NCBI RefSeq assembly: GCF_037040815.1
Contig: NZ_CP146232.1
Coordinates: 1,413,501 to 1,477,500 of the forward strand
From: Pararoseomonas sp. SCSIO 73927
Lineage (GTDB): Bacteria > Pseudomonadota > Alphaproteobacteria > Acetobacterales > Acetobacteraceae
Length of the DNA stretch: 64,000 nt
Direction: 5' to 3'
Of this stretch, positions 8,271 to 52,572 are shown in pieces. The translations under genes were made by a program, and so were the position numbers. The stretch's first letter is position 1. Every line of letters begins with the position of its first letter. Below the pieces are notes generated by a model. The model was not told the origin of the DNA and did no database searches. It saw only the letters and a list, made by a program, of their open reading frames with translations.

Positions 8271-8504
8271 CAGGGGGCGCCGCCCCCTGAAACCCCCGCC
8301 AAGGGCCTGAGGCCCTTGGAACCCCTTCTGGCTGCCGCCACGCCGTCCTGAGACGGTAGCTCTGCATGGAGGGCTTTATCCTGACCTTGCAGTCGCCTCG
8401 GGTCACCGGCCCGAGGCGCACCGTCAGCAGGGTAAAACCACCTACTAGAAAAAGATGATGGTGAGGGGTCCGGGGAGAGGAAGAATTCCATCTTCCTCTC
8501 CCCG
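8271..8504 (-). repeat. Mosaic hairpin repeat, copy 1 (type 1)
   Basis: This copy fills the convergent gap between the 7368 gene and ugd. Its hairpins, from right to left, are: an A hairpin with 14-bp arms around a GAATTC-containing centre (8471-8504) that ends 28 bp past the ugd stop; the tract agaaaaagatgatgg; a B hairpin with arms CGCCTCGGG/CCCGAGGCG (8394-8418) flanked by cggtgcg-type sequence; a degenerate CTGCCGCCA box (near 8331); and two short D hairpins (8271-8289, 8300-8319). The order and flanking words match the copies at 29461, 37700 and 52333. Confidence 0.85.
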
Positions 8505-8532
8505 GGACAGACCGCCAGCCCCGATCCTTCGC

Positions 8533-9837
8533 CTACGGGCGTCCGATGGAGGAGTAGTTGAGGCCGCACTCGCGGAAGGCTTCGGGGTCCCATGCGTTGC
8601 GGAGGTCCAGCACCACGTCGCCCTTCATGGCCGCTTGCAGGCGCTTGGGCGAGAGGGCGCGGAACTCGTTCCACTCCGTCAGCAGCACCACCGCGTCCGC
8701 GCCTTCTGCCGCCTCCAGCGCGCCCTCGGCGAAGACGGTGTTGGCCGGCAGCAGCTGCTTGGCGTGGGCGGGCTGGGGGTCGAAGGCCCGGATCGTGGCG
8801 CCTGCCGCGGCCAGGCGCGGCACGACGACGAGCGACGGCGCGTCGCGCATGTCGTCCGTCTCCGGCTTGAAGGTCAGCCCGAGCACGGCCACCGTCTTGC
8901 CCGCCACCGACCCGCCCAGGGCCGCGACCACGCGCTCGGCCATCTGCTCCTTGCGCGCGTCGTTGGCCGCGATCGTCTGCTCGACGATCGTCACCGGCGC
9001 CCCGAGCTCCTGGGCCGTGCGGGCCAGCGCCAGCGTGTCCTTGGGGAAGCACGAGCCGCCGTAGCCCGGGCCCGCGTGCAGGAACTTGCGCCCGATCCGC
9101 CCGTCCAGCCCCATCCCGCGCGCCACGTCGTGCACGTTCGCCCCGGCGCGCTCGCAGAGGTCGGCCATCTGGTTGATGAAGGTGATCTTGACCGCCAGGA
9201 ACGCGTTCGCCGCGTACTTGATCAGCTCCGCCGTCTCGATCCCCGTCTGCACGATCGGCGTCTCGATGAGGTAGAGCGGACGGTACAGCCGCCGCAGCAC
9301 CTGGAACGCCCGGTCGTCCTCGGCCCCGATCACCACGCGGTCCGGGCGCATGAAGTCGGCGATCGCGCTGCCCTCGCGCAGGAACTCGGGGTTCGACGCC
9401 ACCACGATCTCGTGCCCCGGCCGCACCTCGTCCAGCACCGCCTTGATCCGCCGCCCCGTGCCCACCGGCACGGTCGACTTCGTCACCAGCACCAGCGGGC
9501 CGCGGGCCGCGCGGGCCACCTGCTCGGCCGCCGCGAACACGTAGGAGAGGTCCGCGTGCCCGTCGCCGCGCCGCGACGGCGTGCCCACCGCCAGGAACAC
9601 CGCGTCCGCCCCCTCCATCGCCTCCTCGAGCGCGGTGGTGAAGCTCAGCCGCCCGTCCCGGACGTTCTCCTCCACCAGCTTGTCCAGCCCGGGCTCGTAG
9701 ATCGGAATGCGCCCGTCCCGCAGCGCCTCCACCTTGGAGGCCTCCGTGTCCACCACGCAGACATCCACCCCGAACTCGGCAAAGCAGGCACCGGACACGA
9801 GCCCGACATACCCGGCACCGATCATCGCGACGCGCAT
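8533..9837 (-). CDS. ugd: UDP-glucose 6-dehydrogenase
   Basis: A 434-residue enzyme that oxidises UDP-glucose twice with NAD+ to give UDP-glucuronate, the donor for acidic polysaccharides. The Rossmann motif GAGYVG lies at residues 7-12; ASNPEFLREGSA lies in the middle; the catalytic-cysteine motif GGSCFPKD is near residue 260; and GLTFKPETDDMRD begins the C-terminal UDP-binding domain. The start at MRVAMIG is chosen because it places the Rossmann strand correctly; 13 extra upstream codons are possible but unlikely. Length is typical. It is transcribed leftwards, alone, among glycan genes, and would supply uronic acid to the same polymer. Confidence 0.96.
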   Translation of the reverse strand: MRVAMIGAGYVGLVSGACFAEFGVDVCVVDTEASKVEALRDGRIPIYEPGLDKLVEENVRDGRLSFTTALEEAMEGADAVFLAVGTPSRRGDGHADLSYVFAAAEQVARAARGPLVLVTKSTVPVGTGRRIKAVLDEVRPGHEIVVASNPEFLREGSAIADFMRPDRVVIGAEDDRAFQVLRRLYRPLYLIETPIVQTGIETAELIKYAANAFLAVKITFINQMADLCERAGANVHDVARGMGLDGRIGRKFLHAGPGYGGSCFPKDTLALARTAQELGAPVTIVEQTIAANDARKEQMAERVVAALGGSVAGKTVAVLGLTFKPETDDMRDAPSLVVVPRLAAAGATIRAFDPQPAHAKQLLPANTVFAEGALEAAEGADAVVLLTEWNEFRALSPKRLQAAMKGDVVLDLRNAWDPEAFRECGLNYSSIGRP

Positions 9838-9970
9838 CGATTTCCCCTGCGAGGTCAGGGCCGCCCAGGCCCGCACCCCGCCTCCCTATCCCACCACCAC
9901 GCCCGCGACCATCCCCGCCATGCCGCAACTGCGAAATTCCTTCCGACCCCGATACACAAACAGCATGCAC

Positions 9971-10000
9971 TTGCGAAACGGGTGGACGAGAGGATAGGAA
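9971..10000 (+). promoter_or_regulatory. Possible promoter for the 10058 gene
   Basis: TTGCGA (9971-9976) and TAGGAA (9995-10000) are 18 bp apart in the spacer divergent from ugd, about 58 bp before the TTG start. The match is weak. Confidence 0.3.
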
Positions 10001-10057
10001 TATCAGGACCTTGAGGGGGGCATTCCTCCTCGCCCCTCCTTTCCCGGTGACCGGCCC

Positions 10058-10828: not shown

Positions 10829-10849
10829 GGCTGCGGGGCCGCCCTTCCC

Positions 10850-23794: not shown

Positions 23795-24688
23795 ATGAGC
23801 CGCGCGACGCTCGCCGGTGTGGCCGCGCTGCTGCTCTGGGCCTTCCTGGCAGTGCTGGCGCGGGGCTCGGCGGGGGTGCCGCCGCTGCAGCTGACGGCCA
23901 TGGCCTTCGGCACGGCAGGAGCGTTGGCCACGGCGGGGCTGGCACTGCGCGGACAGCTCCACCTGCTGCGCCAGCCCCCGCTGGCCTGGCTGCACGGGGT
24001 GGGCGGGCTGTTCGGCTACCACGCCCTCTACTTCGCGGCCCTGGCCTGGGCGCCGCCGGTGGAGGCGAGCCTTCTGAACTATCTCTGGCCGCTGCTGATC
24101 GTGCTGCTCTCCGCGCCGATCCTCGGCCTGCGGCTGGGGGCGCGGCGGCTGGCGGGGGTGGTGCTGGGGGGGCTGGGCTGCGCGCTGGTGGTGGGACCGG
24201 GCGCCTCCTTCCCGCCGGGGGCGGGCCTCGGCTTCCTCTGCGCGGCGGCGGCGGCCTTCGTTTGGGCGACCTACTCCGTCACCTCGCGCCGCATGGCCGC
24301 GGTGCCGACGGAGGCGGTGGCGGGGTTCTGCCTCGCCTCCGCCCTCCTCGCGCTCGTCGCCCATCTCGGCCTCGAGGCGACGGTGGTGCCGGATGCCCGG
24401 CAATGGGTCTCCGCCGTGCTGCTGGGCCTGGGGCCGGTTGGGGCGGCCTTCTTCCTGTGGGACATCGGCATGAAGCGGGGCGACCCGCGGCTGCTGGGCA
24501 CCCTGGCCTACGCGGTGCCCGTGGCCTCCACCCTCCTCCTGCTGCTGGCCGGGGAAGGCGTGGCGGGGCCGCGCGTCCTGGCGGCGGCGGCGATGGTGGT
24601 GGGCGGCGGCTGGCTCGCCGCCTCCGCGCGGGATCCCGCGAGGAGCAGGGAAGGGCCGCACCGGCCCCCGGCGCCGAAGGCGTCCTGA
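23795..24688 (+). CDS. EamA/DMT-family transporter
   Basis: A 297-residue inner-membrane protein with about ten hydrophobic segments, arranged as two EamA halves (residues ~5-140 and ~150-285). Members of the drug/metabolite transporter superfamily export amino acids, metabolites or dyes; YddG-type aromatic amino acid exporters have similar spacing, but no specific substrate can be claimed. The ATG start gives the expected short N-terminus before the first helix. It is followed after 125 bp by the LutA-like gene on the same strand. Confidence 0.88.
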   Translation: MSRATLAGVAALLLWAFLAVLARGSAGVPPLQLTAMAFGTAGALATAGLALRGQLHLLRQPPLAWLHGVGGLFGYHALYFAALAWAPPVEASLLNYLWPLLIVLLSAPILGLRLGARRLAGVVLGGLGCALVVGPGASFPPGAGLGFLCAAAAAFVWATYSVTSRRMAAVPTEAVAGFCLASALLALVAHLGLEATVVPDARQWVSAVLLGLGPVGAAFFLWDIGMKRGDPRLLGTLAYAVPVASTLLLLLAGEGVAGPRVLAAAAMVVGGGWLAASARDPARSREGPHRPPAPKAS

Positions 24689-24813
24689 CCCTGGCCGCCG
24701 GCGCCCTGGCCTCGCGCCGGAAGCACCGGGACACCACTGGCGGCGAGGCCGGGCCCGGTGGGCGGAAGGCCACCCGTGGCGCGGCCCCGCCCCCCGTTCT
24801 ATCCTGCGCCGCG

Positions 24814-26237: not shown

Positions 26238-26244
26238 GTTTCTT

Positions 26245-26468
26245 CGGGAGGCTCCGCCTCCCGCACCCACCGCCAGGGGGAAGAAAGAATTCTTCCCCCT
26301 GGAACCCCCATCATCTTCTTCTATCGGTTGGCCCCGTGGAGACCTGTTCCGCGCCGAGGGTCGATGACCCTCGGCGAGCCGCAAGCCCTGCATTCCGCGG
26401 CAGCCCTATAGAAGAAGATGAGGGTGGGGGTTCCAGGGGGAGGGAGAACTCCTTCTCCCTCCCCCTGG
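26245..26468. repeat. Mosaic hairpin repeat, copy 2 (double-ended, type 2)
   Basis: This copy lies between convergent genes and is the only one with an A hairpin at both ends. After a short leading hairpin (26245-26263), the left A hairpin (26273-26302) lies 35 bp past the DUF1345 stop and the right one (26433-26468) 6 bp past the SDR stop. Between them are catcatcttctt, a B hairpin GCCGAGGG/CCCTCGGC (26353-26375), the box attccgcggcagcc and agaagaagatgagg. The double end fits a two-way terminator. Confidence 0.85.
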
Positions 26469-26474
26469 CCGTCA

Positions 26475-27242: not shown

Positions 27243-27262
27243 GGTTCTTCTCTCCGAAGGGG

Positions 27263-28432: not shown

Positions 28433-28463
28433 GCGCGTTTCCCTTCGAGATGTCTGAGAGAGG

Positions 28464-29336: not shown

Positions 29337-29460
29337 GCGCAGCTCCTTGAGGGCGCTGCCAGAACGGCTCCCACATGGGCACGGTTGCGCGATTCGACGC
29401 GGGTGACGAAACGCGATGCCAGTGCCGAGCGATGGATTATCTTATGTTGATGCGCGGGTT

Positions 29461-29703
29461 GGCCCCTAAGGGGCTTCGCCCCCTGGACCCCCACCAGGAG
29501 GCTGAGCCTCCTGGACCTGCATCGGGCTACCGCGGAACTGACGGGACGCGTCAGCTCTCTACGACCGGCACCCTTCCTGCCCTTGCAGTCGCCTCGGCTC
29601 CAAGAGCCGAGGCGCACCGTCAGCCGGGCAAAGGCCAAAGCCTAGAAGAAGATGATGGTGAGGGGTCCGGGGAGAGGAAGAATTCCTTCTTCCTCTCCCT
29701 GGC
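29461..29703 (-). repeat. Mosaic hairpin repeat, copy 3 (type 1)
   Basis: From right to left: A hairpin (about 29670-29702, GAATTC-centred), 20 bp past the stop of the truncated permease remnant; agaagaagatgatgg; B hairpin CGCCTCGGCTC...GAGCCGAGGCG (29590-29614) followed by gcaccgtcag; box ctaccgcggaactga; D hairpins (29494-29514 and near 29470-29482). The region from 29337 to 29460 before it shows no gene. Confidence 0.88.
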
Positions 29704-29723
29704 CACGGACCGGAAGCGAAGGA

Positions 29724-29878
29724 TCAGCGTATCCCAACCCGCATGAAGAGCTGCACGAACTGCCGCTGAAAGAGCAGGAAGGCGGTCAGCGGCGGCGCGG
29801 CGGTGAGGAGGGTGGCCGTGCTGATGATGGCCCGGTTGATGCCCTGGTCGGTCCAGGGTTGGGCCCATCGATCCAACC
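29724..29878 (-). pseudogene. C-terminal remnant of a carbohydrate ABC transporter permease
   Basis: About 50 codons in one minus-strand frame end at the stop 29726-29724. The last residues read AFLLFQRQFVQLFMRVGIR, preceded by NRAIISTATLLTAAPPLTA and a WTDQG-type phrase. This is the characteristic C-terminus of MalG/UgpE-type sugar permeases (last membrane helix, then FLLFQRQFV...GIR). No upstream part of the gene exists: within a few bases of 29880 the sequence becomes a D-type hairpin of the local repeat family. I conclude that a permease gene was cut, leaving only its 3' end together with the repeat-type hairpin that follows its stop. The protein identity is strong; the mechanism is inference. 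Confidence 0.75.
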
Positions 29879-29880
29879 AG

Positions 29881-29919
29881 CCTCCTGGCGGAGGGTCCAG
29901 GGAGGCGGCGCCTCTCTGG
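29881..29919. repeat. Partial mosaic repeat: D-type hairpin
   Basis: The stretch ggcggagggtccagggaggc (29888-29907) and the following arm make a 23-nt hairpin (29897-29919) nearly identical to the one at 35531-35553, including the same leader. It marks the point where the permease remnant ends. It lies about 80 bp before actA. Confidence 0.75.
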
Positions 29920-29999
29920 GGTCACGGGCGCAACGGCCTGCCCGCGCCCGAAACCGTCCCACACCCCCCGCGTTGCCGATCCCATTGGCCGGGGACTCG

Positions 30000-35321: not shown

Positions 35322-35352
35322 TGGGCAGTTCTGATCCGGTGCGCTGGTGGCC

Positions 35353-35553
35353 CCAGGAGGAGAGAAGGAATTCTCCCCTCCTGGACCTCCCCTCATCTTT
35401 TTCTTCAAAGCTGCCGCGGAATGCGAAGCAGGGGTCTCGCCGAGGGGCCATGCCCCTCGGCGCGGGACAGGGCGACCGGAACCAACGGATCGCGGGGTCC
35501 GGGGTGGCCGTTGCCACCCCGGCGGAGGGTCCAGGGAGGCAGAGCCTCCCTGG
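35353..35553 (+). repeat. Mosaic hairpin repeat, copy 4 (type 2), inside the complex III operon
   Basis: From left to right: A hairpin (35353-35384) centred near GAATTC, 31 bp past the actD stop; ctcatctttttctt; box gctgccgcggaatgcg; B hairpin CGCCGAGGGGC...GCCCCTCGGCG (35439-35463) followed by cgggacagggc; two D hairpins (35499-35522 and 35531-35553). The last D hairpin ends 6 bp before the actE ATG and so covers its ribosome-binding region. Confidence 0.88.
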
Positions 35554-35559
35554 GGCCAC

Positions 35560-35970
35560 ATGAGGCGCCTTCTCCTCCTCCTGCTTCTCGCCGCCTGCGA
35601 CGGCTGGCCCGAGAGCCCGAAGCCCCCCGCCCCGCTGCCCCCGCCGGAGGGCGCAGTGCCGCGCGGGGCCGCGGCGGAGCGTCGTGCCCTGGCCGCCCCC
35701 GGGCCGCCCGTGGACGCCGCCCTTCTGGCGGAGGGCGCGGACCGCTACGCCATCTTCTGCACGCCCTGCCACGGGGCGCGGGGCCTGGGGGACGGCGTGG
35801 TCGTCTCGCGCGGGCACCCGCCCATCCCGCCGCTGCCCGCCGATCCCGCGCGCAGCATGGCGGCGATCGCCGAGAATCGGGTGGGCGCGCATCCCCTGGC
35901 GGACCGGCTGGACCCGCGCCAGCGCTGGGCCGTGGCGCGGCACGTGGAAGTGCTGATAGGGAGGCGCTGA
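35560..35970 (+). CDS. actE: Alternative complex III monohaem cytochrome ActE
   Basis: A 136-residue lipoprotein cytochrome c. The signal ends in a lipobox (LLLLLLLAAC), followed by a proline-rich linker and one haem site CTPCH near residue 68. In ACIII, ActE sits on the periplasmic side beside ActA. The ATG directly follows the last hairpin of a repeat and no Shine-Dalgarno sequence other than the hairpin's own ctggggcc is present, so initiation may be weak or controlled by folding. Unlike the other act genes it is not overlapped by its neighbour. Confidence 0.9.
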   Translation: MRRLLLLLLLAACDGWPESPKPPAPLPPPEGAVPRGAAAERRALAAPGPPVDAALLAEGADRYAIFCTPCHGARGLGDGVVVSRGHPPIPPLPADPARSMAAIAENRVGAHPLADRLDPRQRWAVARHVEVLIGRR

Positions 35971-35983
35971 TGCGGGCGGGGCC

Positions 35984-36907
35984 ATGACCGCGTTCGGGGA
36001 GGCCTGGCTGCTGGCCTGGCTGCTCGCTGCCACGCTGGGGGCCGGGGCGCTGGCCGTGTTCGCCTCCGGCCTGCTGCTGCGGGAGCTGTGGGTGGAGCCG
36101 CTGCGGCCCGCCTTCTCCGCCGCCGGGCGGGCCATGCCGGCGCTGCTGGTCCTGGCGCTCCCGCTGGTTGCGTTGGCGCCGCATCTCTATCCCTGGGCGG
36201 GAGAGCCGCGGGCGGTGGCCATCGGGATCGCCACGGCGGTGATCCTGCCGCTCTGGTGCGTGCTGGGATGGTGGCTGGACCGGCGGGCGGAGACGCGCTG
36301 GCCCGCCGGCATCGCGCTGATGCTCGTGGTGCTCTCCGCCGCCATCGGGTTCGAGGACTGGGCGCTCTCCCGCGACCCGGGCTGGGTCGCCAGCCTGTAC
36401 GGGATCTCCCTGCTGGAGGGCGGGGCCGCCGCCGCCCTCGGCCTCTCCGTGCTCGTCCTCGGCTGCCCCGAGGAGCCGGAGGCGCGCACGGGGCTGGAGC
36501 GGGCGCTGCTCACCCTCGGCGTCTTCGCGCTCTGGCTGTGGTTCGTGGGGTTCGTCACCGTCTGGGCGGCCGACCTGCCGCCGGAGGCCGCCTGGTACCT
36601 GCGACGGCAGGAAGGGGGCTGGCCGTGGCTGAAGCTCGGCGTGGCCGTGCCCGCGCTGCTCGGCGCCGTCGCCCTGGCGGTCGTGCCGCAATGGCGGCCC
36701 CGGCGGATGCGGGCGGTCTGCGGGCTCCTCGTCGTGCAGCACGCGGCGGGGCTGCTGTGGTCCGTGCGGCCGGACGCACCGCTCGCCCCTGGCGCGGCGG
36801 CAGGGGCGCCGAGCACGGTGGCGGACGCGATTGTGATCGCCCTGGTCGTACTTCTTCTCGCCCTGGCCCTCCGCCTCGCGCGGCGCGGGCGCGCCGCTCC
36901 TGTATGA
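35984..36907 (+). CDS. Membrane subunit ActF-like
   Basis: A 307-residue integral membrane protein with about eight hydrophobic helices, in the position of ActF. The phrase ALAPHLYPWAG near residue 63 resembles the ActF/ActC-like motif that follows the second helix. In ACIII, ActF is a second NrfD-related membrane subunit; here the protein is shorter than the usual ~400 residues. The start at 35984 follows actE by 13 bp. The assignment is from position, topology and this motif. Confidence 0.75.
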   Translation: MTAFGEAWLLAWLLAATLGAGALAVFASGLLLRELWVEPLRPAFSAAGRAMPALLVLALPLVALAPHLYPWAGEPRAVAIGIATAVILPLWCVLGWWLDRRAETRWPAGIALMLVVLSAAIGFEDWALSRDPGWVASLYGISLLEGGAAAALGLSVLVLGCPEEPEARTGLERALLTLGVFALWLWFVGFVTVWAADLPPEAAWYLRRQEGGWPWLKLGVAVPALLGAVALAVVPQWRPRRMRAVCGLLVVQHAAGLLWSVRPDAPLAPGAAAGAPSTVADAIVIALVVLLLALALRLARRGRAAPV

Positions 36908-36941
36908 TCGTCCATGATTCGAGCAGCAGCAGGAGGCGCGC

Positions 36942-37664
36942 ATGAACCGAACGGATGCCGTGCCCTTCTGCGGCCTGCCGCCCCTGCCCGGTGAGGCGGG
37001 CTGGAACACCAGCCCCCTCCTGGCCGGGGTGCTCCTGGCCGGGCTCCTCATCGGCTGGCGTCCGGCGGCGGACCGGCGCCTTTTCCTCGTCGGCTGGGCC
37101 GTTCTGGCGGCGACGCTGGTCTCGCCCCTCTGCAGCCTCGCCGTCGCGCTCTTCTCCGTGCGGGTCGGGCAGCACCTCCTCATCATGCTCGTCGCCGCGC
37201 CGCTGATCGCCGCCGCCTTCCGCGCGCGCCCGGCCGGGCCCGGCGCACTGGCCCTCTCCGCCGCCCTCCTCGCCGTCGCGCTATGGTTCTGGCACCTGCC
37301 CGCGCCCTATGCCCTGACCTTCACCTCCGACATCGCCTGGTGGGCCATGCACGCCTCCCTCCTCGGCGCCGCCGCCCTCTTCTGGGCCGGCGTGACCCGT
37401 GCCGCGCGGGCGGACGCGGCCCTGCTCTCCGGCCTCGCCACCGCCGCGCAGATGGGCGCGCTCGGCGCCTTCCTCACCTTCGCGCCGCGCCCGCTCTTCG
37501 CCCCCCACGCCTTCACCACCCTGCCCTTCGGCCTCACGCCGCTGGAGGACCAGCAGCTCGGCGGCTTGCTGATGTGGGTGCCGGGCGGAATCGCCTTCGC
37601 GGCGCTCGCCCTCCTCGCCCTCTCCCGCGCGCTGCGGGCGGCGCCGGAGCAGATGGAGGCGTGA
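36942..37664 (+). CDS. ctaG: Cytochrome oxidase assembly protein CtaG (caa3 type)
   Basis: A 240-residue protein with about seven hydrophobic helices, matching the Caa3_CtaG family needed for maturation of caa3 oxidases. Family-like phrases are SVRVGQHLLIMLVAAPL near residue 72, ALWFWHLPAPY near residue 112, and GLTPLEDQQLGGLLMWVPGG near residue 195. An AGGAGG site lies 6 nt before the ATG. It is followed by repeat copy 5 and then the oxidase subunit II gene. Confidence 0.9.
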   Translation: MNRTDAVPFCGLPPLPGEAGWNTSPLLAGVLLAGLLIGWRPAADRRLFLVGWAVLAATLVSPLCSLAVALFSVRVGQHLLIMLVAAPLIAAAFRARPAGPGALALSAALLAVALWFWHLPAPYALTFTSDIAWWAMHASLLGAAALFWAGVTRAARADAALLSGLATAAQMGALGAFLTFAPRPLFAPHAFTTLPFGLTPLEDQQLGGLLMWVPGGIAFAALALLALSRALRAAPEQMEA

Positions 37665-37699
37665 CGGGTTCCGGTTCTGCGGTGCCCGGTCCGGTGGCC

Positions 37700-37932
37700 C
37701 CAGGGAGAGGAAGAAGGAATTCTTCCTCTCCCTGGACCCTCTCCATCATCTTTTTCTATCTGTCTGGGGTCATCCGGCGGGCGGTGCGCCTCGGGTCGAT
37801 GACCCGAGGCGACTGCGAACGCAGAATCAGTGCCGATCGTGGAGAACCGACACTTCAGGTCAGTTCCGCGGCAGCCAGATGCAGGTCCAGGAGGCTCAGC
37901 CTCCTGGCGGGGTGCAGGGGCGGAGCCCCTGC
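37700..37932 (+). repeat. Mosaic hairpin repeat, copy 5 (type 1), overlapping the subunit II start
   Basis: From left to right: A hairpin (37700-37735), a near-perfect palindrome centred on GAATTC, 35 bp past the ctaG stop; catcatctttttct; B hairpin CGCCTCGGGTC...GACCCGAGGCG (37787-37811); gactgc; box gttccgcggcagcc; D hairpins (37887-37907 and 37914-37932). The only in-frame ATG for the next gene lies in the B-hairpin loop, and the signal peptide is read from the D hairpins. Confidence 0.9.
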
Positions 37933-38884
37933 CCTTCTTCTGCTTGCGTCGTGCACCGGCGCGCAAACACCACTCGATCCCTGGGGCATCCAGGCCGATC
38001 GCATCGCGGTGCTCAGCCACGTGCTGTTCTGGGGTGGCGGCGCGGTGTTCCTCGTCACCATGGGCTTCCTGGCGCTCGCCTTCCTGGCGCCGCAAGGGTT
38101 GCGACGGGCGATGGGGTCGCGGCGCTTCCTGATCGGGGGCGGGATCGCGTTCCCGGTCGTCGTGCTGACGGCACTGCTGGGCTACTCGCTCACCGTCTCC
38201 CGCGCGCTGACAGAGCCCATGTCGGACGCGCCGCTGCGGGTGGAGATCATCGGGCGGCAGTACTGGTGGGAGGTGCGCTACCCCGACCTCGGCGAGGGCG
38301 CGGTGACGGCGAACGCGCTGCACCTGCCGCTGGGGCGGGAGGTGGAGCTGAACCTCACCTCGGGGGACGTGATCCACAGCGTCTGGATCCCGAACCTGCA
38401 CGGCAAGCTGGACATGATCCCCGGCCGCGTGAACCGGCAACGGCTGCGCGCGGACAGGTTGGGCGAGCTGCGCGGCCAGTGCACGGAGTTCTGCGGGCAG
38501 CAGCACGCGCTGATGGCCTTCGACGTGGTGGTGCAGACGCCGGAGGATTTCGACGCCTGGATCGCCCGCCAGCGCGCGCCCGTGCCCCAGCCGGAGACAG
38601 AGGAGCACCGGCGCGGGATGCAGGTGTTCGGCGAGGCAGGGTGCGGTGCCTGCCACGCGGTGCGCGGCACGCCCTGGGCGGCGCGGATCGCGCCGGATCT
38701 CTCGCGCGTGGGGTCGCGCGCCACGCTGGCGGCGGGGGTGCTGCCGAACAATCTCGGCAACCTCGCGGGCTGGATCGCGGCGCCGCAGGACATCAAGCCC
38801 GGCAACAACATGCCGTCCTACGCCCGATCCCTGGAGGGCTCCGACCTGCTCGCCCTCTCTTCCTGGCTGGAATCCCTGCGTTGA
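37799..38884 (+). CDS. ctaC: Cytochrome c oxidase subunit II with fused cytochrome c (caa3 type)
   Basis: A 361-residue protein if read from the ATG at 37799. Two membrane helices (about residues 70-95 and 110-135) precede a cupredoxin domain with the CuA ligands CTEFCGQQHALM (about 228-239) and a C-terminal cytochrome c with CGACH (about 282-286) and a distal methionine in GNNMPSY. It receives electrons for the caa3 oxidase. The N-terminus is odd: the lipobox LLLLASC and all codons before it lie in or next to repeat copy 5, and the only in-frame ATG is in the repeat's B hairpin. The true start may be a non-ATG codon closer to the lipobox. Confidence 0.9.
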   Translation: MTRGDCERRISADRGEPTLQVSSAAARCRSRRLSLLAGCRGGAPALLLLASCTGAQTPLDPWGIQADRIAVLSHVLFWGGGAVFLVTMGFLALAFLAPQGLRRAMGSRRFLIGGGIAFPVVVLTALLGYSLTVSRALTEPMSDAPLRVEIIGRQYWWEVRYPDLGEGAVTANALHLPLGREVELNLTSGDVIHSVWIPNLHGKLDMIPGRVNRQRLRADRLGELRGQCTEFCGQQHALMAFDVVVQTPEDFDAWIARQRAPVPQPETEEHRRGMQVFGEAGCGACHAVRGTPWAARIAPDLSRVGSRATLAAGVLPNNLGNLAGWIAAPQDIKPGNNMPSYARSLEGSDLLALSSWLESLR

Positions 38885-41391
38885 GCGATCTGCCGCACAC
38901 CCTGCCGCGCCCGCCGGAGGAGCTGGGCCGGCTGGAGGCCGCCTGGGCCTTCCCGCGCGGCTTCCGCGTGATTACGGAGATCAACAACAACCTCATCGGC
39001 CCGCTCTTCCTGGCGACCTCGCTGATGTTCCTGCTGCTGGCGGGGCTGCTGGGCGTGCTCATCCGGCTGCAGCTCGCCTTCCCCGGCCTGACTTTGATCG
39101 ACCCCAACACCTACAACCAGGTCTTCACCACCCACGGCACGATCATGATGTTCCTCTTCGCCGTGCCGGTGGTGGAGGCGGTGGGCATCGCGCTGCTGCC
39201 CGCCATGCTCGGCGCGCGGGAGATGCCGACGCCGCGGCTGGGCGCCTACGCCTACTGGATCTACCTGATCGGCGGTTCCGCCTTCTTCATGTCGCTGTTC
39301 TTCGGCGCGGCGCCCGACGGCGGGTGGTTCATGTATCCGCCGCTCACGGGCAAGGCGCACTCGCCCGGCGTGAACACGGACATGTACCTGCTGGGGATCG
39401 GCTTCATCGAGATCTCCGCCATCGCCGGCGCGATCGAGCTGATCACGGGCATCCTGCGCTGCCGCGCGCCGGGGATGACGCTGGGGCGGATGCCGGTCTT
39501 CGCCTGGGCGATGCTCGTCTTCGCGGGAATGGTGATCTTTGCCTTCCCCGCCGTGATCGTGGCTTCGACGCTGCTGGAGCTGGAGCGCGCCTTCGACTGG
39601 CCCTTCTTCCTGCCGGAGCGCGGCGGGGACCCGATGCTCTGGCAGCACCTGTTCTGGTTCTTCGGCCATCCGGAGGTCTACATCATCTTCCTGCCGGCGG
39701 CGGGCATGGTCTCCATGATCGTGCCGGCCATGGCGCGGGCGCCGCTGGTCGGGCACAGCCTCGTCGTGCTGGCGCTGGTGGGAACGGCCTTTCTCTCCTT
39801 CGGGCTCTGGGTCCACCACATGTACGCCACGGGCATCCCGGGGCTGAGCCTGGCCTTCTTCGCCTCCGCCGGCTTCGCCGTCTCGGTCCCCTCCGGCCTG
39901 CAGGTCTTCGCCTGGATCGCCACCTTCGCGAGCGGGCAGCGCGTGCGGATCGCGACGCCCACGCTCTTCATCCTCGGCTTCCTGTTCATCTTCACGCTGG
40001 GCGGGCTGACGGGGGTGATGGTCTCCGTCACGCCCTTCGACTGGCAGGCGCACGACACCTACTTCATCGTCGCGCACCTGCACTACGTGCTGATCGGCGG
40101 CATGGTCTTCCCGATCCTCGCCGCGCTCTACTACTGGGCGCCCTGCCTCGGCACGCCGCTGTCGGAACGGCTGGGGAAGTGGGTCTTCTGGCTCTGCTTC
40201 CTCGGCACCAACGTCACCTTCTTCCCCATGCACATCTCCGGCTTCCTCGGGATGCCCCGGCGCATCTACACCTACCCCGCGGGGATGGGGCTGGAGATCT
40301 GGAACCTCATCTCGACCATCGGCGCGCTGATGGTGCTGGCGGGCGGGGTCGTGCTGTTCGTGGACCTGATCCGGAACTTCCGGCTGGAGGACGGCGGTGA
40401 CAACACCTGGGACGCCGGCACGATGGAGTGGCTGCCCAACTACAATTACGGCCCGCGCAGCCTGCCCGCGGTGGACAGCCGCTACCCGCTCTGGCGTAAC
40501 CCGAAGCTGGCGGAGGAGGTGGAGGCGGGCGCGCACTACCTGCCCGGCACCATCACCGGGTTGCGCGAGGGGCTGGTGGTCAGCCCCGCGGAGGGAACGC
40601 CGCAATACGTGGCGGTGCTGCCCGGCCCCACCTGGGCGCACCTCGTCGCGGCGGTCGGCACGGCGGGCTTCTTCCTCGTGCTGACGGTGGAGTGGCTGGT
40701 GCCCGCCGCCGCCTTTGCCGCGCTGGCGCTGGCCGCCTTCCTCTACTGGCTCTGGACCGGCACGGATTTCGGCCCGATCGGTGAAGGGCGCGGCGACATC
40801 GGCGGCGGGATCGTGCTGCCCACCTATGTCACCGGCCCCATGTCCGTCTCCTGGTGGGCGATGTGCGGGCTGATGCTGGTGATGGGCTCCTGCTACGCCT
40901 GCCTCATCGGCACCTCCCTATTCCTGTGGCTGGTGAACGGGGACGGCATGTGGCCCCCCACCGGGATCGGCCTGCCGATCCTCGAGCGCGGCGGGATCGC
41001 CCTGGCCCTCTACCTCGGCGCGGGCGCCGTGATGCTGCTGGCCCGCGCGCTTCTGCGCCGGAACGACGCCCTGCCCTTCTGGGCCGTGCCGCTGGCGCTC
41101 GCCCTGCTGATCGGCGGCTACCTGGTGGACATCTCCGCCCTCACCGGCGCCGGCATCTGGCCGACGCAGCACGCCCACACCGCCTCCTCCTACGCGCTGC
41201 TCACCTGGCAGGGCGGCATCGTCATCACCTGCGCCATCATGGCGCTCTACACCCAGGCGCGCGCCTGGGCCGGCATGATCGACGCCACGCGCCGCCTGAC
41301 CTTCGATAACACGATGCTCTTCTGGCTCTACGCGGCCGGGCAGGGGGCGGTGGGGATCGTGCTGCTGCACGGCTTCCCGCGCCTGCTGTGA
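38881..41391 (+). CDS. ctaD: Cytochrome c oxidase subunit I fused to a subunit III-like region
   Basis: An 836-residue integral membrane protein. Residues ~1-540 are subunit I: FTTHGTIMMFLFAVP (low-spin haem histidine), FGHPEVY near 262 (CuB histidine and tyrosine), WVHHMY near 309 (two CuB histidines), and VAHLHYVL near 400 (histidines for the two haems). Residues ~580-836 add about seven helices resembling subunit III, a known I+III fusion of caa3 oxidases. It reduces oxygen to water and pumps protons. The TTG start overlaps the stop of subunit II (TTGA). Confidence 0.93.
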   Translation: MSDLPHTLPRPPEELGRLEAAWAFPRGFRVITEINNNLIGPLFLATSLMFLLLAGLLGVLIRLQLAFPGLTLIDPNTYNQVFTTHGTIMMFLFAVPVVEAVGIALLPAMLGAREMPTPRLGAYAYWIYLIGGSAFFMSLFFGAAPDGGWFMYPPLTGKAHSPGVNTDMYLLGIGFIEISAIAGAIELITGILRCRAPGMTLGRMPVFAWAMLVFAGMVIFAFPAVIVASTLLELERAFDWPFFLPERGGDPMLWQHLFWFFGHPEVYIIFLPAAGMVSMIVPAMARAPLVGHSLVVLALVGTAFLSFGLWVHHMYATGIPGLSLAFFASAGFAVSVPSGLQVFAWIATFASGQRVRIATPTLFILGFLFIFTLGGLTGVMVSVTPFDWQAHDTYFIVAHLHYVLIGGMVFPILAALYYWAPCLGTPLSERLGKWVFWLCFLGTNVTFFPMHISGFLGMPRRIYTYPAGMGLEIWNLISTIGALMVLAGGVVLFVDLIRNFRLEDGGDNTWDAGTMEWLPNYNYGPRSLPAVDSRYPLWRNPKLAEEVEAGAHYLPGTITGLREGLVVSPAEGTPQYVAVLPGPTWAHLVAAVGTAGFFLVLTVEWLVPAAAFAALALAAFLYWLWTGTDFGPIGEGRGDIGGGIVLPTYVTGPMSVSWWAMCGLMLVMGSCYACLIGTSLFLWLVNGDGMWPPTGIGLPILERGGIALALYLGAGAVMLLARALLRRNDALPFWAVPLALALLIGGYLVDISALTGAGIWPTQHAHTASSYALLTWQGGIVITCAIMALYTQARAWAGMIDATRRLTFDNTMLFWLYAAGQGAVGIVLLHGFPRLL

Positions 41392-41747
41392 GCGACGCCG
41401 CCTCCGTCGCCCGCGCCGTCCTCTGGCCCGCCGCCGGGCTCGCCGTCTGGGGCGCCCATTTTGGCGGGATCTACGCCATCCACGCCCATGCCTGCGAGCG
41501 CGCGCTGGAGAGCCGGCCCCTCCTCGGCCTGCCCTGGGTGCCCGCGCTGGTCGCCGCCGTCACGGTGCTGGCCCTGGTGGCGCTGGTTCTCCTCGTCCTC
41601 CTCGCCCAGCCCGTGAAGGGCGCGATGGAGGGCGGCGAGCCCGAGCCCGGCTTCACGCGCTGGTTCGGCGCGGCCGCCTGCGTGCTGGCCGGCTTTGCCG
41701 TGCTGTTCCAGGCGGCCCCGGCGGCGGTGCTGCCAGCCTGCTGGTAG
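41388..41747 (+). CDS. Small membrane protein at the end of the oxidase operon
   Basis: A 119-residue protein with three hydrophobic segments (about residues 10-30, 48-72 and 90-112). The GTG start overlaps the ctaD stop (GTGA), so it belongs to the operon. It may be a small accessory or assembly subunit of the caa3 oxidase, but I recognise no family motif. Repeat copy 6 follows the gene. Confidence 0.8.
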   Translation: MSDAASVARAVLWPAAGLAVWGAHFGGIYAIHAHACERALESRPLLGLPWVPALVAAVTVLALVALVLLVLLAQPVKGAMEGGEPEPGFTRWFGAAACVLAGFAVLFQAAPAAVLPACW

Positions 41748-41772
41748 CGCCCAGTCCTGATCCGTTCCGCAT

Positions 41773-42031
41773 CCCAGGGGGCCTTGCCCCCTGGAACCCC
41801 CACCGGGGTAGCAACGGCTACCCCGGACCCCGCGACCGGGCTGCCGCGGACACGACGATACCTGTCGCGCCGCAAACCTTTTGAATCCAGGTGAGCACGA
41901 ACGGCCCTGTCCCGCGCCTCGGGTCATGGACCCGAGGCGAGCCGCTAGCCCCGCATTCCGCGGCAGCCAACCAGAAGAAGATGAGGGGTGGGGTGCCAGG
42001 GGAGGGGAGCATTCCTTCTCCCCTCCCCTGG
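41773..42031 (-). repeat. Mosaic hairpin repeat, copy 6 (type 2)
   Basis: From right to left: A hairpin (41996-42031) 9 bp past the stop of the leftward cytochrome gene; agaagaagatgagg; box cattccgcggcagcc; B hairpin CGCCTCGGGTC...GACCCGAGGCG (41915-41939) followed on the other side by cgcgggacagggc (complement); two D hairpins (41803-41826 and 41773-41793). It has the same internal order as the copy at 35353, in opposite direction. Confidence 0.88.
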
Positions 42032-42040
42032 CCCGCAGCA

Positions 42041-42505
42041 TCAGGCCCGCGGCCTGATTCGTGGCTCCTCGCGCGGCCCGGCCTGCCCAGGCCCCAGCGG
42101 CAGCCCGGCCGGCACTTCGGGCACCCGCCCGGCCCCGAGGGTGAAGAGGTAGGCCGCCGCGTCGCGCGCCTCGGCCTCGGTCAGGCCGAGGTTGGGCATG
42201 GCGCTGCCGGGCGCCATCGCCTGGGGGTCGCGCAGCCAGGCGACGAGGGTATCGGGCGCGTTCGGGTGGTGGCCGGCCAGGTAGCCGCGCCGGGCCCACT
42301 CCGTCAGTGGCGGCCCGGCCCAGGAGGTAGCACCGCGCACGCCGGGGATGACGTGGCAGGCGCCGCATCCGCGGGCGCCGATCACGGCGCGGCCGCGTTC
42401 CGGATCGGCGCCGGCAATGCGGAGCGCGGCGGGGGGCGCCTCGTCACATGCGGCGAGGGCGAGCGCGAGGAGGGGAAGCAGCCGGAGGATCGGTGTTGTC
42501 CGCAT
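42041..42505 (-). CDS. Lipoprotein monohaem cytochrome c next to paoABC
   Basis: A 154-residue cytochrome c. A lipoprotein signal (LPLLALALAAC, about residues 10-20) precedes one haem site CGACH near residue 48 and a likely methionine ligand in GSAMPNLGL near residue 102. It lies 90 bp downstream of paoC on the same strand, with a strong hairpin in between, and is convergent with the oxidase operon. It is the natural candidate to take electrons from the periplasmic aldehyde oxidoreductase and deliver them to the caa3 oxidase. That link is inferred from position and shared compartment. Confidence 0.88.
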   Translation of the reverse strand: MRTTPILRLLPLLALALAACDEAPPAALRIAGADPERGRAVIGARGCGACHVIPGVRGATSWAGPPLTEWARRGYLAGHHPNAPDTLVAWLRDPQAMAPGSAMPNLGLTEAEARDAAAYLFTLGAGRVPEVPAGLPLGPGQAGPREEPRIRPRA

Positions 42506-42543
42506 CGGGTCCGCCGGGCGAACGCGGGCTTCCCGGCCGGGTT

Positions 42544-42576
42544 GCCGGCGGGAGGGGCTGGTGCCCTCCCGCCGGC
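42544..42576. terminator. Strong hairpin between paoC and the cytochrome gene
   Basis: GCCGGCGGGAGGG (42544-42556) pairs perfectly with CCCTCCCGCCGGC (42564-42576), 13 bp with a 7-nt loop. It follows the paoC stop by about 20 bp. No U-run follows in either direction, so it could be an attenuator or an mRNA-stability element that lowers or separates expression of the cytochrome. Confidence 0.55.
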
Positions 42577-42594
42577 AGGGCTCAGGCGTCGGGC

Positions 42595-44814
42595 TCAGGC
42601 CGGCTCCGGCAGGCGCTCGAGAAGCTTGTCGAGCGTGATGGGGTAGTCCCGCACGCGGATGCCGGTGGCGTTGTGGATGGCGTTTGCCACCGCCCCGCCG
42701 ACGCCGCAGATGCCGAGCTCGCCCACGCCCTTGGCCTTCATGGGGGAGGAGACCGGGTCCACCTCGTCCAGGAAGATCACCTCCTGGTGCGGGATGTCGG
42801 CGTGGACGGGCACCTCGTAGCCGGCCAGGTCGTGGTTCACGAAGAAGCCGTGGCGGGTGTCCACCTCCAGCGCCTCCGTCAGCGCGGCGCCGACGCCCAT
42901 GGTCATCGCGCCGATCACCTGGCTGCGCGCGGATTTGGGGTTCAGGATCCGGCCGGCGGCGCAGACGGCCAGCATGCGGCGCACACGGGTCTCGCCCGTC
43001 AGCGCGTCCACGCCCACCTCCACGAAGTGACCGGCGAAGGTGGATTGCTGGTAGCGCTTGCCGAGGTCGCCGTACTCGATCCCGTCCTCGGCCGAAAGTC
43101 CGGCCGGCCCGGCCGCCTCGCCCAGCGGCACGGCCCGGTTGCCGGCACGCACCTGCCCCTCCGCGAACGCCGTGTCGGCCGAGTTGAAGCCAAGCTTCTG
43201 CGCCACCGCCTCGCGCAGCTTCACGCAGGCGGCGTAGACGCCGGCGGTGGCGTTGTTCGCGCCCCACTGGCCGCCGGAGCCGGCGGAGGCCGGGAAGTCG
43301 GAATCGCCGAGGCGCACCACCACCCTCTCCACCGGCACGCCCATCATCTCGGCGGCCGTCTGGGCGATGATGGTGTAGCTGCCCGTGCCGATATCCGTCA
43401 TGTCGGTCTCGACCGTGACCACGCCCTGCCCATCCAGCCGCACGCGGGCGGCGGACTTCATCAGCAGGTTGTTGCGGAAGCCGGCCGCCACGCCCATGCC
43501 GACCAGCCAGCGACCCTCCCGCCGCGTGCCGGGGCGCTGGTTGCGGGTGGCCCAGCCGAAGCGCTCCGCGCCCATCCGCAGGCACTGGACCAGCTGGCGC
43601 TGGGAGAAGGGGCGCTCCGGGGCCTCCGGGTCCACCTGGGTGTCGTTCAGGACGCGGAACTCCACCGGGTCCATGCCCAGTTTCTCCGCCATCTCGTCGA
43701 TCGCGACCTCCAGCGCCATCATGCCCGGCGCCTCGCCGGGGGCGCGCATGGCGTTGCCCTCGGGCAGGTCCAGCTCGGCCATCCGCATGGAGGTCAGGCG
43801 GTTGGCGCCGGCGTAGAGCAGCTTCGTCTGCGCCACCGCCGTCTCGGGGTCGCCGCCCTTCAGGTTGCCCGAGATGCTCTCATGCGCGATGGCCGTGATC
43901 CGGCCGTCCCGCGTCGCGCCGAGGCGGATGCGCTGGATCGTGGCGGGGCGGTGCGTGGTGTTGTTGGCGATCAGCGGCCGGGTGAGGGCCACCTTCACCG
44001 GCCGCCCGGCGGCCTTCGCGCCGAGCGCCGCCAGCACGGCATCCACCCGTACGAAGAGCTTCGAGCCGAAGCCGCCGCCGACATAGGGGCTGTCGATCCG
44101 CACCCGCTCCGGCGGCAGGCCAAGGGTCTTCGCCAAGTCCCGCTTGCCCCAGGCGATCATCTGGTTGGAGGTCCAGACGGTGAGCTTCTCGCCCTCCCAG
44201 GCCGCGATGGAGGCGTGCGGCTCCATCGCCGCGTGGCTCTCGTCGGGGGTGGTGTAGGTCTCGTCGAGCTTCACCGGCGCGGCCGCGAAGGCCCCGTCGA
44301 AATCGCCGACGCGGTCCTCGGGCGGGGCGCCGCTCCCCTCCTCGCTGTCGCCGCCCACCAGCGGGGCGCGCGGGGCCTCGGCCTTGAGGTCGTAGCGGCC
44401 CGGCGCGCGGGCGTACTCCACCTTGATCAGCGCCGCGGCGTCGCGGGCCGCCTCGAAGGTCTCGGCCACCACGAGGGCGATCGCCTGGTGGTAGTGCTGC
44501 ACTTCCGCACCGCCGAAGAGGGCGGCGACGTTCGTCTGCCCCTTCTCCAGCCTCGGCATGTCGAGGGTGCTGACCACCGCGACCACCCCCGGCGCGCGGC
44601 GGGCGGCGGCGGTGTCCATGGCGGTGACGCGGCCCTTGGCGATGCCGGCGCCGAGGATGAAGCCGTAGGCCTGGTTCGGCACGGCGTCGTGGCGCTCATA
44701 GGCGTAAGGGGCGGTGCCCGTGGTCTTGCGCGGCCCGTCGATGCGGTCGATCGGGCGGCCGACGACCTTGAGCTGGTCGATCGGGTTCCGGCCGGCGGGG
44801 GTCTCGAACTTCAT
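42595..44814 (-). CDS. paoC: Periplasmic aldehyde oxidoreductase molybdenum subunit PaoC
   Basis: A 739-residue large subunit of the xanthine dehydrogenase family. Motifs include GGGFGSKLFV near residue 245, RAPGEAPGMMALE near 355, TDIGTGSYTI near 470 and the catalytic-glutamate segment KGVGELGICG near 700. It has no export signal of its own; in the PaoABC family the complex is folded in the cytoplasm and exported with the Tat signal of PaoA. It should oxidise aldehydes, often aromatic ones, to acids. It is third in the paoA-paoB-paoC operon. Confidence 0.9.
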   Translation of the reverse strand: MKFETPAGRNPIDQLKVVGRPIDRIDGPRKTTGTAPYAYERHDAVPNQAYGFILGAGIAKGRVTAMDTAAARRAPGVVAVVSTLDMPRLEKGQTNVAALFGGAEVQHYHQAIALVVAETFEAARDAAALIKVEYARAPGRYDLKAEAPRAPLVGGDSEEGSGAPPEDRVGDFDGAFAAAPVKLDETYTTPDESHAAMEPHASIAAWEGEKLTVWTSNQMIAWGKRDLAKTLGLPPERVRIDSPYVGGGFGSKLFVRVDAVLAALGAKAAGRPVKVALTRPLIANNTTHRPATIQRIRLGATRDGRITAIAHESISGNLKGGDPETAVAQTKLLYAGANRLTSMRMAELDLPEGNAMRAPGEAPGMMALEVAIDEMAEKLGMDPVEFRVLNDTQVDPEAPERPFSQRQLVQCLRMGAERFGWATRNQRPGTRREGRWLVGMGVAAGFRNNLLMKSAARVRLDGQGVVTVETDMTDIGTGSYTIIAQTAAEMMGVPVERVVVRLGDSDFPASAGSGGQWGANNATAGVYAACVKLREAVAQKLGFNSADTAFAEGQVRAGNRAVPLGEAAGPAGLSAEDGIEYGDLGKRYQQSTFAGHFVEVGVDALTGETRVRRMLAVCAAGRILNPKSARSQVIGAMTMGVGAALTEALEVDTRHGFFVNHDLAGYEVPVHADIPHQEVIFLDEVDPVSSPMKAKGVGELGICGVGGAVANAIHNATGIRVRDYPITLDKLLERLPEPA

Positions 44815-49758: not shown

Positions 49759-49789
49759 CCGCCGGAAGGCCCCCTGGAGGAACCGACGC

Positions 49790-50962: not shown

Positions 50963-51357
50963 TGAGCGAGACCCTTCCCCCGCGCACGCCGCCCGCCCCC
51001 ACGCCCGATCCCTCCACCCGTGCCTTCTGGGACGCGGCGAGGGAGGGCAGGCTGCTGATCGGCCGCAACACGCGCACAGGCCGGTTCCACTACCCGCCGC
51101 GCCCGGTCTGCCCCTTCGACGACGAGGGCGAGGTGGAGCTCGTGCCCGCCGCCGGCACGGGCACGATCTACACCTACAGCGTCATGCGGGCGAAGACGCC
51201 CTACGTGATCGCCTATGTCGAGCTCGCCGAGGGCCCGCGGATCATGACCAACATCGTGGACTGCGACCCGGCGGCGCTGCGCGTCGGCCAGCCCGTCCGC
51301 CTGGCCTTCGTGGCGGCCGAGGACGGCCAGCCGATCCCCGTTTTCACCCCGGCCTGA
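50962..51357 (+). CDS. DUF35 OB-fold protein with degraded zinc ribbon
   Basis: A 131-residue DUF35 protein, the obligate partner of thiolase-fold enzymes of this type. The N-terminal segment LLIGRNTRTGRFHYPPRPVC corresponds to the rubredoxin-like zinc ribbon, which normally has four cysteines as CxxC...CxxC; only the cysteine after PPRP remains, so zinc binding is probably lost. The C-terminal OB fold (GTIYTYSVM...VIAYVELAEGPRIMTNI) is normal. It starts within the stop of the thiolase-like gene (TGATG). Confidence 0.9.
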   Translation: MSETLPPRTPPAPTPDPSTRAFWDAAREGRLLIGRNTRTGRFHYPPRPVCPFDDEGEVELVPAAGTGTIYTYSVMRAKTPYVIAYVELAEGPRIMTNIVDCDPAALRVGQPVRLAFVAAEDGQPIPVFTPA

Positions 51358-51371
51358 GAGGGAGGCGAGCC

Positions 51372-52286
51372 ATGTCGATGCTGGAGGGCAAGGTCGCGAT
51401 CGTCACCGGCGCCGGCGGCGGGATCGGGCGGGAGATCGCGCTGGCGATGGCGCTGGCCGGGGCGAAGGTCGTGGTGAACGACATCGGCGCCTCCCTGACC
51501 GGCCTCGGCGAGAGCTCCGCCACCCCCGGCGAGGGCACGAAGGCCATCATCGAGCAGCGCGGCGGCGTGGCGGTGACGGACACGAACAGCGTGGCCGAGT
51601 GGGACAGCGCGAAGCGCATCGTGGCGACCGCGATCGAGGCCTTCGGGCGCGTGGACATCGTGGTGAACAACGCGGGCATCCTGCGCGATCAGATCTTCCA
51701 CAAGATGACGCCCGAGGAGTGGCGGGCGGTGATCGACGTGCACCTGAACGGGGGCTTCTACGTCTCCCGCGCCGCGGCGGAGCACTTCCGCGCGCAGGGC
51801 GCGGGCGCCTATGTCCACATGACCTCCACCTCCGGCCTCGTCGGCAATTTCGGGCAGGCGAACTACGCGGCGGCGAAGCTCGGAATCGTGGCGCTGTCCA
51901 AGTCCATCGCGCTGGATATGCAGCGCTTCGGCGTGCGCTCCAACTGCATCGCGCCCTTCGCCTGGAGCCGCATGACGAGTTCCATCCCCGCCGAGACGCC
52001 GGAACAGCAGGCGCGGGTGGAGAAGCTGAAGCGCATGACGCCGGAAAAGAACGCGCCGCTCGCCGTCTTCCTCGCGAGCGACGCCGCGAGCAACGTCACG
52101 GGCCAGGTCTTCGCCGCGCGGAACAACGAGATCTTCCTGTTCAGCCAGCCGCGCCCTGTGCGAAGCCTGCACCGCGGCGAGGGCTGGACGCCGGAGCTGA
52201 TCGCGGAGCAGGCCATGCCCGCCCTGCGCGCCGGGTTCCTGCCCCTCGACCGCAGCCCCGACGTCTTCTCCTGGGATCCGGTGTGA
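51372..52286 (+). CDS. SDR of the hydroxyacyl-CoA dehydrogenase (MFE-2-like) type
   Basis: A 304-residue SDR. The cofactor motif TGAGGGIGREIA is at about residues 12-23, NNAGILRD near 98, the catalytic serine in TSTSG near 155 and YAAAKLG near 170. The long insertion before the NAG motif and the C-terminal extension (FAARNNEIFLFSQPRP) are typical of the (3R)-hydroxyacyl-CoA dehydrogenase domain of MFE-2. It should oxidise the hydroxyacyl-CoA made by the MaoC protein. A GGGAGGCG site precedes the ATG. Repeat copy 7 follows it. Confidence 0.9.
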   Translation: MSMLEGKVAIVTGAGGGIGREIALAMALAGAKVVVNDIGASLTGLGESSATPGEGTKAIIEQRGGVAVTDTNSVAEWDSAKRIVATAIEAFGRVDIVVNNAGILRDQIFHKMTPEEWRAVIDVHLNGGFYVSRAAAEHFRAQGAGAYVHMTSTSGLVGNFGQANYAAAKLGIVALSKSIALDMQRFGVRSNCIAPFAWSRMTSSIPAETPEQQARVEKLKRMTPEKNAPLAVFLASDAASNVTGQVFAARNNEIFLFSQPRPVRSLHRGEGWTPELIAEQAMPALRAGFLPLDRSPDVFSWDPV

Positions 52287-52332
52287 GGTCGGCGAGGCTT
52301 CGTTCCAGTCCTTCGCCGGGCCTCCGTGGCCA

Positions 52333-52572
52333 GAGGGAGGAAGAAGGAATTCTTCCTCCCTCCGGACCTCCCACCATCATCTTCTTCTTCAGGTTGGGAT
52401 CACTCGACTGACGGTGCGCCTCGGCTCGTGGAGCCGAGGCGATTCCAGGGGCAGGACCGGGTAGGCTGGGGTCAACGCACCAGCTCAGCTCCGTCCCGCG
52501 GCAGCCATCCGGGGATCCAAGGGCCTCAGGCCTTTGGCCGGTGAGGTCCGGAGAGGGCGGCGCCCTCTCCGG
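52333..52572 (+). repeat. Mosaic hairpin repeat, copy 7 (type 1)
   Basis: From left to right: A hairpin, a near-perfect palindrome around GAATTC (52333-52362), 46 bp past the SDR stop; catcatcttcttcttc; actgacggtgcg; B hairpin CGCCTCGGCTC...GAGCCGAGGCG (52417-52441); box gtcccgcggcagcc; D hairpins (52517-52537 and 52548-52572). The last hairpin ends 30 bp from the stop of the convergent receptor gene. Confidence 0.88.

Follow-up and report, generated by a model that had tools for sequence, protein, structure and literature searches.

A mosaic family of palindromic repeats inserted into gene-end spacers of Roseomonas-like bacteria, with a probable role at transcript 3' ends

Why should one family of hairpin repeats lie, copy after copy, just past a stop codon? 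The question is raised by a 64-kb stretch of the Pararoseomonas sp. SCSIO 73927 genome (contig NZ_CP146232.1, positions 1,413,501 to 1,477,500; hereafter the window), whose hairpin elements an earlier note had read as terminators or mRNA-end elements in 3' untranslated regions (UTRs) and not as random insertions. We propose that these are lineage-specific, non-autonomous, mosaic palindromic repeats of ~270 bp that have spread by insertion into gene-end spacers and are probably transcript 3'-end elements, a reading to which we assign a probability of roughly 65%. Self-BLAST of the window revealed seven near-complete copies of a 200-290 bp repeat, the longer matches being ~71-83% alike. Together with alignments and model matches, this bears out the earlier description of seven copies with shared modules, of two layouts, and of a double-A copy near 26245. 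In type I copies the order is A hairpin, CATCATCTTCTTC tract, B hairpin, box and D hairpins; in type II copies the box stands on both sides of B, and the two boxes paired with each other in the one type II copy that was folded. Whole-copy folds were 5.5 and 6.0 standard deviations (SD) below shuffles. The alignments comprised 30 type I loci (20 of them re-shown in a single orientation) and 13 type II loci.

Three copies lie at sites that could be compared with orthologous sites in congeners. A type II copy (35322..35559, + strand; A module 35350-35412) stands between actD and the next gene of an alternative complex III / cox cluster, a type I copy (37665..37933, +; A module 37697-37762) stands at the ctaG/coxB junction of that cluster (gene names from Pfam), and a further type II copy (41748..42040, - strand; A module 41968-42034, -) separates a convergent gene pair. 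The comparison set was seven congeners with a full-length cox1 gene match. One of these, G006, is ~92% identical over the cox region and shares the insertions at 35322 and 37665, while none of the other six (G008, G007, G009, G011, G002 and G005) has an A module at the 35322, 37665 or 41748 sites. In these six element-free congeners the two genes at the 35322 site overlap by 4 nt (6/6), the 37665 site has GTGA at the stop (6/6), which by eye is possibly also the downstream start, and the spacer at the 41748 site measures 1, 4, 30, 32, 112 or 668 bp. The same sites are empty in Roseomonas harenae. At 1.53 Mb one convergent spacer holds an element both in the window's genome (G000) and in G006, but as judged by eye the two elements differ and point in opposite directions. 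Because orthologous sites are empty and A-module counts range from 0 to at least 86 within the genus, these copies are identified as insertions, and the earlier note's reading against insertion at random is not supported.

Other features were seen around these insertions. At ctaG/coxB (37661-37990), a frame begun at the old GTG start of coxB meets no stop within the element and runs on into a lipoprotein signal. The two sides of the 41748-42040 copy match different G006 contigs (C3 and C5). When G006 was aligned to larger pieces of G000, 12 of 21 internal alignment ends fell within 60 bp of an element in either genome; of the 439 spacers in those pieces, 24 hold an element. Some of these ends are plain insertion differences or paralogue matches.

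How widely has the repeat spread? The search of genome and relatives that the earlier note had proposed was run with a covariance model (R1) trained on 40 A modules, which found 8 A modules in the 7 window copies. In G000 it found at least 150 A modules at at least 143 places, with E-values of 2e-22 to 3e-10; these are the best 150 scored from 4211 first-look candidates. When 39 stretches of 20 kb, evenly spaced, were scanned in full, 16 matches had E<1e-4 and 13 of these are among the 150, so that the true number is likely higher. The modules are clustered: 134 of the 150 fall between 0.65 and 2.6 Mb on contig C1, in 36% of its 5.47 Mb, in agreement with the stretch scan (13 matches in 13 stretches inside this region, 3 in 26 outside). 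A DnaA gene, at 2.56 Mb of C1, lies at one edge of the element-rich region.

Counts within the genus are patchy. Relatives were searched with stricter filters than the genome, and at most the best 86 matches were scored, so that the 85-86 A modules in each of G000, G001, G002, G006, G007, G011 and G014 are lower bounds. Fewer were found in G009 (21), G005 (14), G008 (5), G013 (2) and G010 (1), and none in G003, G004 or G012. Outside the genus, A modules were present in 3 of 21 other genomes of the family (14, 4 and 1) and in 0 of 24 genomes of the wider class; the matches behind many of the low counts are weak, with a best E of 1e-9 to 2e-4, while those in G008 and G024 are better. The repeat is thus a ~270-bp family present at well over a hundred places in a single group of Roseomonas-like bacteria. 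Phage records gave no match to the element. Among plasmid records there is one partial copy covering 48% of the query (NZ_CP025188.1, 148490-148617, Roseomonas mucosa AD2), and its nearest annotated genes, in an incomplete gene table, are convergent and ~180 bp and ~1.2 kb away.

The spacers that the repeat occupies are far from a random sample. With a purpose-built codon-usage gene caller, the 150 listed modules fell into 87 convergent, 59 tandem and 4 divergent spacers (84/55/4 when each place is counted once), against an expected 18.9/110.4/20.8 by gene pairs or 25.5/81.0/43.5 by spacer length. Both nulls are rejected at p < 1e-41, and the earlier view that placement is non-random with respect to stop codons stands. 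The element-free reference pairs (79 convergent, 462 tandem and 87 divergent) came from the 39 evenly spaced stretches. Element-bearing convergent spacers have a median of 278 bp, which leaves a median of ~16 bp after a nominal 262-bp element, compared with a median of 64 bp (598 bp when length-weighted) for element-free convergent spacers.

Which end of the element meets the stop? In the window all eight A modules lie 7-44 bp past a stop (28, 36, 7, 22, 32, 36, 10 and 44 bp), in line with the 6-46 bp of the earlier note, but its "always" does not extend to the genome, where the A end is past a stop in 113 of 150 modules (median 22 bp; 109 within 80 bp and four beyond). Nor does the A hairpin with its tract point in the direction of the upstream gene as a rule, since of the tandem modules 26 turn A towards the stop and 33 towards the next start. 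In those 33 cases the D end is near the stop, and therefore the placement rule is that one end or the other lies against a stop, not that A does. The relatives give the same picture: 39 convergent, 31 tandem and 0 divergent spacers for 70 A modules, with A at the stop in 17 tandem cases and D in 14. This set was reduced from 75 A matches to 74 (one partial match dropped) and then to the 70 with neighbours on both sides within limits, and many of its members come from G006, in stretches chosen partly for holding copies.

How well are the A hairpin and its tract conserved? In an alignment of 117 matches (110 distinct), fitted to R1 and hence leaning towards the modelled structure, 95.2% of cells pair, two-sided change is seen at 10 of 16 pairs, and two-sided cells, 139 in all, outnumber those of shuffles (46.5) and of slid controls (26 or fewer). 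A check independent of this alignment, on 55 distinct arm pairs, gave 91% pairing versus 78% for shuffled arms, in the register picked for best pairing. The inner part of the 5' arm is almost entirely purine. Of the 144 modules that could be anchored (the other 6 of the 150 could not), 119 have the loop AAGGAATT and 13 have AAAGAATT. Because of these 13 AAAGAATT loops, a CsrA-like reading of the GGA loop was dropped. From about the loop onward (75 nt), the longest G-free run reaches at least 18 nt in 142 of 150 modules (median 24), whereas such runs occur at 0.2 per kb per strand elsewhere in the sample. The A module thus combines a covarying hairpin, a conserved loop and a G-free tract, in an element that prefers stop-bearing spacers and takes either orientation.

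A closer view of what the element may do comes from loci at which related genomes differ. The gene before the 3.59-Mb copy has 2-hydroxyacid dehydrogenase and ACT domains (Pfam) and is, from its C-terminus, presumably serA; we call it serA-like. The element follows its stop in G000, G006 and G014, and 12 of the 15 genus genomes lack it there. Six of these 12 (G008, G002, G013, G003, G004 and G012) keep the convergent neighbour, and in all six the 78-142 bp from the stop to ~28 bp inside the neighbour hold a strong hairpin, which in five genomes has a short run of A or T (3-5 nt) on either side; G013 is without the runs. To judge from its sequence, this native A/T-flanked hairpin has the look of a two-way terminator. 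In G000, G006 and G014 the element is present and no hairpin of the congeners' kind stands beside it. At this one locus, then, the element apparently stands in place of the native hairpin of a convergent spacer.

A DegT-family gene (Pfam) with the same neighbour in five genomes gives a second comparison: the element is present in G000 and G006, short hairpins are found in G007 and G002, and G014 has an apparent ~60 bp remnant, by eye; G009 and G005 are not comparable. Replacement was examined at these two loci. The TGA of the common C-TGA-TCC junction was considered as part of the element and rejected at the serA-like gene, whose TGA is the same in all 15 genus genomes, whether they carry the element or not; this rests on one locus, and the DegT-family stop varies among genomes (TGA, TAA or TAG). 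Behind the serA-like gene in G000, and likewise behind the DegT-family gene in G006, a further palindrome, GGTTGGAC..GTCCAACC, is nested in the D hairpin and is similar to a fragment at 29857 of the window.

From these features we infer a role for the element in RNA. It would be co-transcribed as a 3' UTR, with its hairpins setting or guarding the 3' end of the RNA. Exonucleases that run 3' to 5' may be stopped at the A hairpin, and the tract that follows, rich in C/U and free of G, could serve for Rho loading or as a weak terminator. Such a tract would suit Rho loading. Strong one-way termination is hard to square with the random orientation and the operon insertions, whereas a boundary at the 3' end, at which exonucleases halt, agrees better with both orientations. 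In a bolder version, which we consider doubtful, the mobile repeat would take over gene 3' ends: landing at stops and displacing the native terminator, it would supply through its hairpin and G-free tract a transcript end for both convergent genes, so that part of the chromosome would run on transposon-derived transcript ends.

Several results weigh against a repeat that spread by insertion and acts at transcript 3' ends. On the structural side, further pair types in the A hairpin show no excess (20 vs 20.5 in shuffles), and although the six folded window A stretches reach -26 to -41 kcal/mol, two of them are only 1.9 SD below shuffles. No immediate U run follows the A hairpin, and a terminator scan of 24500-44400 called 0 of the 6 A modules there. 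Placement shows no orientation rule in tandem pairs (binomial p 0.43), and the contexts depend on our gene caller, at least one of whose four "divergent" calls (29639) is a miscall. One copy separates two genes whose counterparts in six congeners overlap by 4 nt, and the next junction of the same cluster carries another; strong termination there would be polar, so the operon-junction copies weigh against a terminator role. As to mobility, no parent transposon was found in a transposase search that covered Y1_Tnp only, and the Y1 transposase (PF01797) matched 0 of 15 genus genomes and 5 of 14 control genomes. Finally, 111 anchored copies (of 134 copies >200 bp) showed no strong direct repeat at a fixed offset and hence no clear target duplication. 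A possible RTGA target duplication was seen by eye at one site. Examined for terminal inverted repeats, the two element ends look related by eye, but inverted matches taken position by position are weak and in type I do not exceed 0.43 over 4 positions (vs a mean of ~0.29 for direct matches).

Are the elements, then, simply selfish repeats without host function, persisting chiefly behind genes, where the host is harmed least, with hairpins kept for transposition? We give this an even chance. It overlaps with the transcript-end reading, as mobility is common to both and only the RNA role differs. The patchy counts in the genus, the free orientation in tandem pairs and the insertions at operon junctions speak for it, as does the rarity of divergent spacers (4 of 150, one a miscall), and the relevant section of PMC3049150 takes this same convergent bias, in pneumococcus, as a sign of tolerance. 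Tolerance accounts less well for spacers that are almost wholly filled, with far less sequence left over than element-free spacers contain, for the missing congener-type hairpin beside the element at the serA-like gene, and for a G-free tract that is conserved even though it lies outside the hairpin.

An alternative favoured by the earlier note is that the elements are dedicated intrinsic terminators, the A hairpin and T-rich tract ending transcription of the upstream gene. The strong folds of the six window stretches, the pyrimidine tract and the position of A past a stop in most modules agree with this, and the covarying hairpin, the conserved tract and the replacement of a hairpin at the serA-like gene likewise uphold the broader notion of mRNA-end elements. 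As terminators in the strict sense, however, they are unlikely: A faces the next start in more than half of the tandem cases (33 of 59), copies occur at operon junctions, and a C-rich linker parts the A stem from the T-rich stretch. A canonical intrinsic terminator at A (stem with immediate U run) was rejected on the scan, which called no A module in 24500-44400. The scan called 4 sites there, vs 5.2 in shuffles, and two of the 4 overlap at a single D hairpin; among the sites called is the outer D hairpin of the copy at 37.7 kb, whose tail falls within coxB. Known Rfam families were rejected as an identity: the whole window gave only rRNA and tRNA, and the sequences L001 and L009 gave three weak matches far under the gathering scores, L039 none.

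That these are REP/BIME-type repeats moved by a Y1 (RAYT) transposase is very unlikely, for although the palindromes and gene-end position match the REP pattern as described in the pertinent part of PMC3733652, RAYT mobilisation was rejected on the lack of Y1 transposase in the 15 genus genomes, the unit is ~270 bp and not 20-40 bp, and no tag is constant at the foot of the A hairpin (in 150 modules, GTAG 4 times upstream and once downstream, CGTC 34 times upstream and 0 downstream).

The remaining window copies conform to the layouts above. Two type I copies lie between convergent genes, one at 8269..8514 (-; A module 8442-8508, -), with its D hairpins at left and a stop 28 bp from A, and one at 52309..52572 (+; A module 52327-52393), with a stop 44 bp upstream. 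The double-A copy, also between convergent genes (26269..26472, no strand assigned), has A modules at 26270-26330 (+) and 26405-26471 (-) and is self-inverted over 26269-26472 by BLAST. A further type I copy (29469..29723, -) has its A module (29639-29705, -) past the stop of a short reading frame (29724-29858, -). Our gene caller missed this frame, and the module was therefore counted as divergent. On its other side the frame adjoins a D-end fragment into which an extra hairpin has been inserted (29857..29925, +; extent by eye). The frame encodes 44 residues that by eye resemble the C-terminal remnant of a transport permease; a Pfam search with 43 of them gave no match. Of the two partial copies in the earlier note, the one at 29881 holds up as this D-end fragment (29884-29925 matches 35518-35559 over 42 bp by BLAST), while the one at 18532 is a weak A-model match (E 0.05).

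If the RNA role is true, the family would offer natural before-and-after pairs (close species that have or lack the element at one and the same gene pair) for the replacement of terminators by a mobile repeat, and would also show how operon neighbours tolerate the insertion of a 240-270 bp hairpin. It also singles out a structural feature of Roseomonas-like genomes that is changing quickly. In the open-licence literature, searched partly among top-ranked matches, we found no paper on such a repeat in Roseomonas and no description of the family, its composite layout or the serA-like takeover.

The kind of element is known, however. REP/BIME repeats, in the sections of PMC3733652 that treat them, are palindromic, high in copy number, found mainly in convergent and tandem spacers near the 3' ends of open reading frames (ORFs), and sometimes touch stops; they lie within 20 bp of convergent ORF 3' ends and, in tandem pairs, near the upstream ORF 3' end. 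The REP-like placement (extragenic, at gene 3' ends, rarely in divergent spacers) holds here, whereas the element differs in being a ~270-bp composite of fixed module order, with no constant GTAG/CGTC tag and no Y1 transposase in the genus; the same sections list CGTC repeats as missing in Acetobacteraceae. The SPRITE of Streptococcus pneumoniae, as presented in part of PMC3049150, is an 18-bp duplex followed by a tract of ~48% uridine and is enriched between convergent genes and at 3' ends. It resembles our element in its long hairpin with a tract behind, but the tract here is C/U-rich, G-free and set behind a C-rich linker, B, box and D modules are added, and the phylum is different. Pneumococcal BOX elements are likewise modular, and some copies encode the stop of the flanking gene (the same part of PMC3049150); their modules are others, and the stop of the serA-like gene is its own. 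ERIC/IRU/RU-1, YPAL and other MITE-like repeats share a non-autonomous, mainly intergenic habit and stable RNA folds (portions of PMC2229807 and PMC2759123), and ERIC is reported to alter the stability of upstream mRNA (PMC2229807, in the portion concerned). Our element shows the MITE trait of insertion at sites empty in relatives (three window sites vs six congeners), but it is larger and composite, with no clear target duplication found. The CIR repeats of Caulobacter and Brucella are also alphaproteobacterial and intergenic, with more than one RNA arm, but measure ~110 bp and have conserved GANTC sites (the corresponding portion of PMC2229807); a CIR-like identity was rejected, since any GANTC occurs in only 32 of 134 copies >200 bp. 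The best reading is therefore a new lineage-specific family of REP/BOX/ERIC/SPRITE-like mosaic repeats, of a kind already known.

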